IMG/VR virus record: IMGVR_UViG_3300007513_000004
Coordinates: 1 to 64,000 of that record
DNA length: 64,000 bases
Origin: a virus
Reading direction: 5' to 3' (one strand)
The notes below the pieces were generated by a model. That model ran no database searches and was not told where the DNA came from. It saw only the letters and a list, made by a program, of their open reading frames with translations. The translations under genes were made by a program, and so were the position numbers. The number at the start of each line of letters is the position of its first letter. Positions within the stretch are counted from its first letter, which is position 1. This document shows, in pieces, positions 1,878 to 38,328 of the stretch.

Positions 1878-2227
1878 TGGTGGAGGCGGGCGGAATCGAA
1901 CCGCCGTCCAAAGCAACTCATACTTCAAGTCATTCACAAGCTTGTCTAGATTTTATAATCTAGCAAATCCTCCCGCTAAGTTATACCATCATATCCGCAG
2001 GATGATATGAGTCGAGTATTTTTTGTTATCAGTGATACTAGTCCACCTATCTCACGTTGGGTAACAAGGCCCTGAGAAGCCCCGGAACTATGCCGCTAAA
2101 GCGACTGGTTCGTAGTAATAATTGTTATTGGCAATTATAGTTTTTTGCAACAAGTTTTGAGTCATTCGTTACCGTAGACTGCTTGCACTATTCGCACTTA
2201 CTACCCTGTCGATACCATTTCGCCCCC
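1878..2227 (-). ncRNA. ssrA: tmRNA (transfer-messenger RNA)
   Basis: The 5' end is GGGGGCGAAATGGTATCGAC and the 3' end carries a T-arm (GGTTCGATTCC) and CGCCTCCACCA; the two ends form a 7-bp acceptor stem with one G-U pair, and CCA is encoded. The tag reading frame at 2132-2088 encodes ANNNYYYEPVALAA followed by TAG, with A at position -4 before the GCC resume codon, as expected. The molecule should rescue stalled ribosomes and tag products for proteolysis with the hydrophobic VALAA end. Phage-borne tmRNAs are known but rare. Confidence 0.95.
2088..2132 (-). other. tmRNA tag-peptide coding segment
   Basis: Fourteen codons plus TAG within the tmRNA: A-N-N-N-Y-Y-Y-E-P-V-A-L-A-A. The C-terminal ALAA matches the protease-recognition end of bacterial tags, while the Asn3-Tyr3 run is unusual. 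Confidence 0.85.
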
Positions 2228-34441: not shown

Positions 34442-34529
34442 GTATCACAAGGGGTTGAGCCCTTGACCCGCCATCGGGAAGGTGGAGAGCAGCCTCGCTG
34501 GTGTCGGGGCAAACACAAATGGAGTTGTA

Positions 34530-34934
34530 ATGAACATTTTTGGAAATGACAACGAGAGTCCCGCCGCCATTCTTCGTCAGACGATGAGCGTCAGCCTTAC
34601 TGATGACGGTATTCCGGTGGTTTCTTTCGCCACTAACCGTGGCAAGGGTAGCGGTTCGCAGGTGATTCCGGTTGCCGAGTTTTCCGAGTACGTTTCGACG
34701 TTGGAAGACATTTTGGAGTCCGGTATCCCCGAGGATGCTGATGAGGATTTGTCGGCAGGAGAGATGGTGCGTCGTACCATTCGTCAGGATGACGGTGTTA
34801 TCTCCTTCCGCGTGCGTGGAGGAAAGGGTGCAAAGCCCGCCAAGGTCAGCACTGATAACTTCGCAGAAGTTGTCGAGCTTCTTCGGTCCACGGTCGATGC
34901 GGTTGAAGGAGCCTGTGAGTCGCTGACAAAGTAG
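34530..34934 (+). CDS. Duplicated-domain protein, copy 2
   Basis: 134 residues from MNIFGNDNESPAAILRQTMS. Same two-repeat plan as 26500-27003 (VSFATNRGKGSGSQVI and VISFRVRGGKGAKPAK) but lacks the long acidic tail. RBS GGAG. Paralogue; unknown function. Confidence 0.8.
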   Translation: MNIFGNDNESPAAILRQTMSVSLTDDGIPVVSFATNRGKGSGSQVIPVAEFSEYVSTLEDILESGIPEDADEDLSAGEMVRRTIRQDDGVISFRVRGGKGAKPAKVSTDNFAEVVELLRSTVDAVEGACESLTK

Positions 34935-36047: not shown

Positions 36048-36680
36048 TTAGTGTTTGTGATAGTCGACGTTTGATACCTTGGGGTTCCAACAAGCCCGGC
36101 ACGATCCGCACTTGCCGTCTTGCTTAAGAGCGGGGCAACCATGGCCCATACCCGCATCAATCGTACTCGTAGGCAGGTCGGTGCGCGGCGGCTTGCCACC
36201 TATCATCGTAGCCGATAGCCGGATGACAAGGTTAACGGGCCATGCTGCTACCCGTGCGAACGCTTCCCGGATCATCTTACCTTCACGAGACGGTGCCCAG
36301 AACTCTGCCCATGGTAGGCGTTCGGCTACCTCTACCCACATCAGAACATGATCGACGCTCTGAAAGTCACCGCTATCATGGATACGGAAGTATGGATCGT
36401 CCGGGTTAGTGTAGTGACCGATTAGCTTAACCATACCATCGGTCCATAGTGGATGGGTCAAAGCCTGATAGCGGCGCTCGTGCCCTAACTTGACGTTCGG
36501 GTACATGTAGTTATTTTTCATGGCGTAGCAGTTGCTACAACTTGATCCCTCTATCCCGGCAAGGATACTGCCCAGGATACAGCGTGTTGCACTTAGTGCG
36601 GTGCTGAACCCTGGCATCTTGCTCGGCTTACCTAATCCGCTACGATGCCCGGTTATCTCTTTCGCTTGTTTTAGATTCAT
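36048..36680 (-). CDS. GP88-like phage protein
   Basis: 210 residues from MNLKQAKEITGHRSGLGKPS; SKMPGFSTALSATRCILG and SCSNCYAMKNNYMYPNV match the phage gene product 88 family with a CxxC motif, then PYFRIHDSGDFQSVDH. C-terminal Cys cluster (CPALKQDGKCGSCRAC). Suggests a metal-cluster protein, but function is unestablished. RBS GAAGGGA. Confidence 0.8.
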   Translation of the reverse strand: MNLKQAKEITGHRSGLGKPSKMPGFSTALSATRCILGSILAGIEGSSCSNCYAMKNNYMYPNVKLGHERRYQALTHPLWTDGMVKLIGHYTNPDDPYFRIHDSGDFQSVDHVLMWVEVAERLPWAEFWAPSREGKMIREAFARVAAWPVNLVIRLSATMIGGKPPRTDLPTSTIDAGMGHGCPALKQDGKCGSCRACWNPKVSNVDYHKH

Positions 36681-36739: not shown

Positions 36740-37505
36740 TCTACAAGTTTTTCAAAAAAGTTTATAATCCCGCTCGGCGCACCCGTCTGGCCCGGTTTAC
36801 ACCGTCGCCCCGTTGATACCGTAGCGGTACTGAATAATATCGGACCCTGCATATTGGGTGAGCATATAATGAAAGGGGTGAGCATTAGCACGTCTGCCCA
36901 CTTACCTGTGACCACCAAACATATTTATATATGTATGATGTACGCACACGGGTGAGTAACACCCTGCACAGGCTTTCTCCCTGTTCTTGTCCTTTGGAGA
37001 CGCTGAACAGCAAGCAATACTTCTGACCGACATTCTGTGCTCAAGTTGGTAAGCTGTACACTTCCCCCGCTTGTTACACGTTATCATTCAACCTCATGGT
37101 AAGGTATCCTAATAACCCCTTTCGGGACGACAAAATCGTTGCCGACTTTGCCAGAGAGACTTCTGCCTTCAGAAGTTAAGTTCTATCAGATTTCTCCGAT
37201 TTACCATGACTCTTTAGTCAGTGCCCTTATCCCGTTTCCACGATGAACCTACAAGTCCGCAGATACCCTCGGCTGCACTTCCACAGTAGTATGTGGACTC
37301 ATGCCTTAGATTACTGAATGATATTCAAGGCCACTACACCTCTTAACTCATTCCCCCTCACAGCCAAGCGGCAGGTCCATATGAATAGCACCCTTCTTGG
37401 GCGGGGTTCTCTCTATCTCCGAAGAGTGCAGGAGCCGGTAACTCCACCTGCATTTAAAGACCCAAGAACGGGGGTCAGTTTAAGTTTTCAAAGAACTTTC
37501 GCTCT
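36740..37505 (-). ncRNA. Large structured noncoding RNA candidate (GOLLD/ROOL-like class)
   Basis: About 765 nt without a plausible gene, starting just after a phage promoter at 37511-37539 and running on the minus strand. Contains many perfect hairpins: ACTTCTG-CCTT-CAGAAGT (37159-37176), TGACT-CTTT-AGTCA (37207-37220), TCCACA-GTAGTA-TGTGGA (near 37271) and a GNRA-type CCCGAAAGGG on the RNA strand near 37120. Size and phage setting fit ornate large RNAs such as GOLLD or ROOL, but I cannot run a covariance search. Confidence 0.6.
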
Positions 37506-37510
37506 GTCAT

Positions 37511-37539
37511 AACATAGTTGATGTTAAAACAGAATCCAA
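37511..37539 (-). promoter_or_regulatory. Promoter of the large noncoding RNA
   Basis: Minus strand TTGGAT -35, spacer TCTGTTTTAACATCAAC (17), TATGTT -10; best match to the module consensus. Confidence 0.65.
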
Positions 37540-37630: not shown

Positions 37631-37825
37631 TTAGAGGTTTTTCCAACTCCAAGGTTCGCCGTCCAGCTTTCGCTGAAGTCGAATTCTGAAGCCCAAAGCC
37701 TTATGCCCCGTCAACGGAGTCAATAACTCAATGGCATACTTGACCTCGTCCTCGGTTGCTTTTCGCAAAAGAGCATCGCGGGCAAAGCCATAAACGAATT
37801 TCCGGTGTTCTGGATTGTCAGGCAT
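37631..37825 (-). CDS. Small unknown protein
   Basis: 64 residues, basic; RBS GAGG eight nt upstream. ARDALLRKATEDEVKYAIEL is helical. Unknown. Confidence 0.55.
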   Translation of the reverse strand: MPDNPEHRKFVYGFARDALLRKATEDEVKYAIELLTPLTGHKALGFRIRLQRKLDGEPWSWKNL

Positions 37826-37887: not shown

Positions 37888-38328
37888 TTACTCTTCGTCG
37901 GGAGAGCCGCCAGCAAGCTGACTACCCGCGTTCTCGACAGCATCAAGAGTGCTGCGGAGAAGTCCCACGACCTCTGCAAATTCACCGACTGGCATCTTGG
38001 CTGGCTTGGCACCCTTACCGGAACGAACCCGGAAGGAAATCACACCTTCGTCAGACTTGATAGTTCGGCGCACCGTTTCAGCGGCAGAAAGCAACTCTTG
38101 CTCGGCAGTCTCGGGGATGCCATTATCAACGTAGCTTTCCAATGTTTCAACGTAATCCCGATATTCCTCAACAGGAAGAATCTGGGCACCTGAACCCTTG
38201 CCGCGATTCGTGGCAAAGCTGACGACCGCTTGGCCGTCGTCGTCCAGAGAAACAGCCATTGTCTGACGAATCGTCTGGGCCGGAGACTCATTGTGCTCCG
38301 ATGCAAAAATGTTAGTTTTGTCGCTCAT
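37888..38328 (-). CDS. Duplicated-domain protein, copy 3
   Basis: 146 residues; TIRQTMAVSLDDDGQAVVSF and VISFRVRSGKGAKPAKMPV reproduce the two-repeat plan of the 26.5- and 34.5-kb proteins. GGAG seven nt upstream. Paralogous to both. Confidence 0.8.
   Translation of the reverse strand: MSDKTNIFASEHNESPAQTIRQTMAVSLDDDGQAVVSFATNRGKGSGAQILPVEEYRDYVETLESYVDNGIPETAEQELLSAAETVRRTIKSDEGVISFRVRSGKGAKPAKMPVGEFAEVVGLLRSTLDAVENAGSQLAGGSPDEE

Follow-up and report, generated by a model that had tools for sequence, protein, structure and literature searches.

The window analysed here, a stretch of 64,000 nucleotides, comes from a virus contig of 223 kb that carries a tmRNA and nine tRNA genes. On its minus strand, a gap with no plausible gene is bounded by a 64-aa gene (37631-37825, minus strand) and a gene of the GP88 family, and within it lies a free-standing structured RNA gene at approximately 37505-36873 (Table 1). 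An earlier note, made from the sequence alone, had proposed at 36740-37505 a minus-strand structured RNA of about 770 nt. The strand and the folding are borne out by a minimum free energy z-score of -3.95, compared with -1.64 for the plus strand, and by covariation across 28 relatives. The proposed extent holds on the 5' side and is about 130 nt too long on the 3' side: since the boundary of the family is a conserved hairpin at 36901-36878, the RNA measures about 630-640 nt. The earlier reading that no plausible gene is present also stands, the longest start-to-stop frame within the RNA being about 61 codons. In the RNA alignment only 25% of the indel lengths are divisible by three and no frame stays open throughout, hence the RNA is non-coding. 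Almost certainly, the RNA is genuine, conserved and non-coding, and belongs to a class that Rfam does not include.

The wider window encodes two similar proteins of 150 and 146 aa, whose genes are on opposite strands and some 3 kb from each other (34482-34934, plus; 37888-38328, minus). They share the motifs VSFATNRGKGSG and VISFRVR, have no Pfam or PHROGs match, and likewise occur as two copies in a related contig (3300008952_000015). Phage-encoded tmRNA genes were seen in the window (1878-2227, minus strand) and in a relative (L036, 346-766), with the tag peptides ANNNYYYEPVALAA and ANNNYYFEESRLAA.

Table 1. Features of the RNA gene and its surroundings, in window positions; helix ranges without window positions are alignment columns.
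Feature	Positions	Strand	Basis or remark
Structured non-coding RNA gene	36873..37505	-	28-sequence alignment A2, covariation, compared ends; start placed from the promoter position
Putative promoter, copy of a phage-wide promoter-like motif (ATTCTGTTTTAnCATCAnCTAnnTTATGA)	37507..37536	-	recurrence in the window
boxA-like element GUUCUUUGAAA (predicted NusB/S10 antitermination signal)	37486..37496	-	RNA 5' end
5' hairpin P1 (GACCC...GGGTC)	37459..37476	-	pseudoknot of loop 37468-37464 with 37413-37409
5' domain, helices 129-132/185-188 and inner helices	37354..37406	-	pseudoknot 37384-37381 / 37361-37358
Helices P10-P15	37237..37353	-	covariation
Pseudoknot of 37251-37246 (AGGUU, in conserved UUGUAGGUUCAUCG) with 37182-37177 (AACUU)	37177..37251	-	covariation
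Central domain (model R1), containing two GNRA hairpins (37153-37128, 37126-37117)	37019..37176	-	covariation
Palindromic hairpin loop UGUACA	37055..37060	-	candidate loop-loop contact between two RNA copies
3' domain, invariant stem CUGUUC/GAACAG and helices P31-P36	36905..37014	-	helices 30-36
Conserved 3'-end hairpin GUGGGC-AGACGUGCUAAU-GCUCAC	36878..36901	-	loop 36893-36888 pairs with 36947-36942 (pseudoknot)
Spacer ahead of the downstream gene, outside the conserved RNA	36740..36872	-	no counterpart in relatives
Downstream GP88-family gene (PF17338)	36048..36680	-	family match; neighbours vary among relatives

Relatives and conserved structure

The relatives of the RNA are found in about 30 uncultivated phage contigs of 15-317 kb. 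The first of them was reached via a neighbouring gene and is a 128-kb contig with a copy of the region that is 72% identical (L017, genome G001); this copy, the closest homologue, folds with a z-score of -6.1. Words identical in the window and this first relative were scanned against viral contigs, followed by words conserved in the growing set, and iterated nhmmer retained the final contigs. An exact long pattern built from the window alone had 0 matches. No real match to the RNA was found among 50,697 phage records and 72,556 plasmids, and the 84,980 bacterial and archaeal species genomes, scanned with one pattern only, returned a single chance match. None of the cultivated phages in the searched collection carried the RNA; as the searches reach only ~65-70% identity, and as near relatives of the window may be missing from the collection, more distant relatives may still occur in cultivated phages. 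A 25-nt match in a Staphylococcus phage and seven loci of the pattern scan (L025, L029, L030, L032, L034, L035 and L037) were rejected as chance matches. According to the covariance model of the central domain (R1), each phage searched has one copy of the RNA. Two big contigs of 242 kb and 236 kb break off within the RNA gene, at the end (L048) and at the start (L023) respectively, perhaps an assembly break at shared sequence.

Alignment A2 comprises 28 sequences, which are full-length except for short or cut ones. RNAalifold yielded 166 nested pairs, 109 of them with changes on both sides, and the full model, four pseudoknots included, has 181 pairs. In this model 94.4% of the cells are paired, compared with 79.9% in shuffles and 40-46% in slid registers. 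Both sides changed with pairing kept in 123 of the 181 pairs (79 in shuffles), the both-side-changed cells numbered 694 (198 in shuffles) and the covariation score was 0.397 (0.174 in shuffles). The earlier note had named a lack of compensatory changes in relatives as evidence against a structured RNA; such changes are abundant. A covariation test of single pairs over all column pairs has little power at 28 sequences, therefore helices were tested instead; the single-pair test nevertheless gave eight significant pairs, of which six lie in the structure and the other two are at least 96% paired. A phylogenetic null let the columns evolve independently of one another along the inferred tree; relative to it, 38 four-pair helices were significant at E<=0.05, the best of them scoring 1.96 and the top null value being 0.61.

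Six of the helices that beat this null fall outside the nested fold. They delimit two pseudoknots in the interior (A2 columns 304-309/415-420 and 152-155/181-184), a third at the 5' hairpin (46-50/122-126) and an extra helix at columns 669-672/714-717. In the fourth pseudoknot, the 3'-end hairpin pairs through its loop with columns 662-667. The pseudoknot of the P1 loop (46-50/122-126) is 97.5% paired, with UA/CG and CG/GC exchanges and a helix E of 0.00 against the phylogenetic null; the one in the 5' domain (152-155/181-184) is 92.7% paired, both sides changing. The pseudoknot between 37251-37246 and 37182-37177 is 100% paired in 25 sequences, in the variants AGGUU/AACUU, AGAUU/AAUCU and AAAUU/AAUUU, and in the 3'-hairpin loop the column pair 666-743 shows five pair types and is paired throughout. 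The best covarying hairpin is 37297-37280, with double changes in six of six pairs. The GNRA-type loops noticed earlier are upheld: CCC-GAAA-GGG at 37126-37117 is almost invariant, and the stem that carries the GCAA/GAAA loop of 37153-37128 covaries. A pairing of boxA with columns 413-417, which appeared in the RNAalifold structure, lacked covariation and was left out of the model. Both the class as such and its fold are established, and the structure is very probably largely as modelled.

Signals at the two ends of the RNA

The promoter that the earlier note had placed ahead of the RNA was recovered as a copy (37536-37507) of a recurring phage promoter-like motif and is not a good sigma-70 match (7/12). 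At 10 or fewer mismatches of 30, the motif has at least 12 copies in the window, while shuffled sequence gives fewer than one; these are 29904-, 34416+, 35664+, 37536-, 38477-, 38520+, 38877+, 43387-, 44053+, 44638+, 46071+ and 49584-. Its phage-wide consensus is approximately ATTCTGTTTTATCATCAGCTACATTnnGACATAAGGA, and the matching motif of the close relative G001, TTATTTTCTACATCRGTTATATCGTTGTG, precedes the RNA and other genes there. A promoter-like pair that matches at 9 or more of 12 positions lies upstream of the RNA in 74% of the members, compared with 17% of shuffles; examples are TTGACA-17-TACATT in L084 and L087 and TTGAAC-17-TATAAT in L057.

The exact gamma-proteobacterial boxA consensus GYTCTTTAANA (PMC5725501) is found in seven members, and the form in the window, GUUCUUUGAAA, is inexact. 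In a first test, the boxA-like pattern was detected at 22 of 23 five-prime ends, with L092 carrying a weaker form, and it was also present in two full copies fetched later; the background is 1.1% per 65 nt for the boxA-like pattern and 0.04% for the exact consensus. In GC-rich lineages the element sits ~35 nt further upstream. An untranslated transcript of 630 nt is exposed to Rho, and boxA is the known remedy, as in rRNA. On these grounds, Nus-factor antitermination may be proposed, and the conserved element probably functions as an antitermination signal.

At the 3' end, many members have a T-run or a second terminator after the conserved hairpin, and the window copy has no clear terminator at this place. 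In L017 (G001), the RNA is flanked by other genes than in the window and is followed by a strong intrinsic terminator.

Known RNA classes and the genomic neighbourhood

Rfam models, at gathering and at permissive thresholds, matched neither the RNA in the window nor any relative checked, while a known ROOL of a Ligilactobacillus plasmid, the positive control, was found at 130 bits in the same search. The covariance search against large RNA classes that the earlier note had recommended gave no match, an outcome that the note had listed among those speaking against its proposal, and membership in GOLLD, ROOL or HEARO was not borne out. The ROOL model (RF03087) matched none of 22 phages at thresholds up to E=10, the only signals of the GOLLD model (RF02032) were noise at E>=0.85 that lay elsewhere than at the RNA, in a run whose positive control was ROOL only, and HEARO, OLE and the other large-RNA models of Rfam matched none of the members. 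Conversely, R1 matched neither the ROOL locus nor the lncRNA of phage ICP1. Since the same search recovers a known ROOL, the RNA is, as judged from sequence, a new class akin to GOLLD and ROOL in size, complexity and tRNA neighbourhood and not a detectable member of either. The earlier comparison therefore holds for the size, the phage setting and the large, ornate, free-standing character of the RNA and fails for membership. It is long and non-coding, with compensatory changes and pseudoknots, as in large ornate structured RNAs, it lies in phages near tRNA islands, the ROOL-type setting, and it has a boxA consensus at the transcript 5' end.

Like the new RNA, ROOL is of ~600-650 nt with several pseudoknots, is encoded by phages and plasmids, often near tRNA islands, and has no known partner protein; it differs in that no similarity in sequence or covariance model is detectable, and in that no boxA was seen ahead of the single ROOL locus read. 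GOLLD is likewise giant, ornate, phage-encoded and found in a tRNA neighbourhood, but has a variable 5' half and a conserved 3' half, whereas both halves of the new RNA are conserved, and its model does not match at the new locus. With rRNA leaders the RNA shares a boxA antitermination signal that opens a long untranslated transcript (PMC5725501), but it is a phage gene with no match to rRNA models. The abundant non-coding transcript of ~800 nt in ICP1 is also a large phage RNA, compared by its authors with GOLLD and ROOL (PMC7567579); ICP1, however, has no tRNAs, and the transcript was rejected as a relative, with no similarity in the ORF-less gap and no R1 match.

The RNA of the window falls in a zone at 10.8-44.6 kb that contains all nine tRNA genes of the contig. 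The nearness to tRNA genes suggested by the earlier note applies to the relatives and less to the window, where the nearest tRNA is 7.4 kb away: in ten genomes with both, the RNA is nearer to a tRNA than expected (combined p ~6e-5), the window phage individually not being significant. Among 55 tRNAs, 51 are on the same strand as the RNA. In L036, tRNA-Lys ends ~10 nt before the RNA, and in L031, L061, L064 and L070 tRNA-Ser lies 50-60 nt before it; four searched phages have the RNA with no detected tRNA gene. No family of neighbouring proteins is shared by more than five of the 28 loci, so a dedicated partner protein is not suggested. The linkage with GP88 is local, because none of 13 viral loci with GP88 relatives carries the RNA. 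Genes for FKBP-like peptidyl-prolyl isomerases, recognised by eye near the RNA in L061, L064, L070, L044 and L059, have a lineage-specific link to it.

The terminases of the carrier phages are of at least two unrelated types, one T4/cyanophage-like, and they do not group as the RNAs do. In L031 (G005), from a phage with the second type, the RNA falls inside the clade of the first type, the comparison being with L017 (G001) and L036/L028. As the two groupings conflict, they suggest that the RNA gene was exchanged between phage lineages.

A possible self-assembling RNA and its alternatives

A 6-nt palindrome occupies the same hairpin loop in 23 of 25 sequences and is of three kinds (UGUACA, UAGCUA and UGGCCA). 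Its retention despite sequence change suggests self-pairing between RNA copies and is the pattern that symmetric loop-loop contacts would produce; because it reflects about two independent replacements, is absent from L084 and is only 4 nt long in L089, we treat it as suggestive only. GOLLD is described as a 14-mer cage whose RNA increases in level when the phage lyses its host. ROOL, GOLLD and OLE are homo-oligomers, ROOL being an octameric RNA-only cage (PMC12286853). Given this precedent, the knotted fold, the full-length conservation and the lack of a partner gene, a structural self-associating RNA is our best guess; by analogy, the folded RNA may bind itself in a structural role. Self-assembly as such we regard as quite possible, somewhat short of an even prospect.

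The steps that involve the promoter and boxA are read from conserved signals. The RNA would be driven by its own promoter, phage-specific here and an ordinary sigma-70 promoter in other lineages; in some relatives its gene directly follows tRNA genes of the same strand. With boxA first in the transcript, the host NusB/S10 (Nus) complex would most likely load on RNA polymerase and shield the untranslated transcript from being terminated by Rho, as it does for rRNA, so that synthesis would be high and run to completion. The transcript then adopts a compact multi-domain fold with four or more pseudoknots and the conserved hairpin at its end. The product would be a stable structural RNA, copies of which most likely bind each other, like the ROOL and GOLLD cages, through the self-complementary loop and the 3'-loop contact, which could also be intermolecular; its role would lie late in infection, near the phage translation genes. 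That no partner gene occurs in more than five of 28 loci fits an RNA working without a dedicated phage protein. Taken as a whole, a boxA-antiterminated, folded, probably self-assembling RNA scaffold is the best explanation, one that we see as evenly poised between right and wrong.

The RNA might instead form an RNA-protein particle that acts on translation by binding host ribosomes or tRNAs during infection and does not self-assemble. The tRNA neighbourhood, the tmRNA nearby in some genomes, the many conserved unpaired stretches and the ribosome binding reported for GOLLD from pull-downs (PMC12286853) would fit, but four RNA-carrying phages have no detected tRNA gene, and we consider this reading unlikely, though worth keeping in mind. 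A very diverged GOLLD or ROOL, beyond recognition by the Rfam models, would share the length, several pseudoknots, phage origin and tRNA neighbourhood; the failure of the ROOL, GOLLD, HEARO and OLE models in the members and of R1 at a true ROOL locus, which Rfam's ROOL model does find, makes this improbable.

An abundant RNA with a boxA could also act on host transcription, as decoy or regulator, by titrating NusB/S10 from host rRNA synthesis; the constancy of boxA, which few other primary-sequence features match, would fit this. Such a decoy would hardly need a pseudoknotted body of 600 nt and carries a single boxA per molecule, so that we regard it as quite improbable. We find it still harder to credit a ribozyme, such as a self-splicing intron or the RNA of a mobile element: the size, the pseudoknots and possible movement between phages, as read from the conflict with the terminase grouping, are in its favour, but Rfam gave no group I/II intron or HEARO match, there is no internal ORF, no gene is interrupted, and each phage has one copy with its own promoter and end. 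Finally, the position just upstream of GP88 in the window would agree with a role in cis, as leader or riboswitch, for the downstream gene; as the downstream genes vary among lineages, and L017 has other neighbours and a strong terminator, this possibility is largely refuted and has next to no credence with us. Returning to the self-assembling scaffold, we tentatively propose, with more doubt than confidence, that this new phage RNA class may combine rRNA-like synthesis through boxA with an RNA-only particle built via the self-complementary loop and thus be a third independent cage or scaffold next to GOLLD and ROOL.

In bacteria and their phages, only a handful of RNA classes are so large and intricate. 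Large phage RNAs such as GOLLD and ROOL can form RNA cages of unexplained purpose, hence the interest of a new class. An independent class that covaries strongly, has defined ends, spans several distinct lineages and offers an assembly loop open to testing allows shared traits to be sought, and those to be compared across such RNAs are high untranslated transcription via boxA, tRNA neighbourhood and self-assembly. The alignment thus provides a ready target for probing and cryo-EM.
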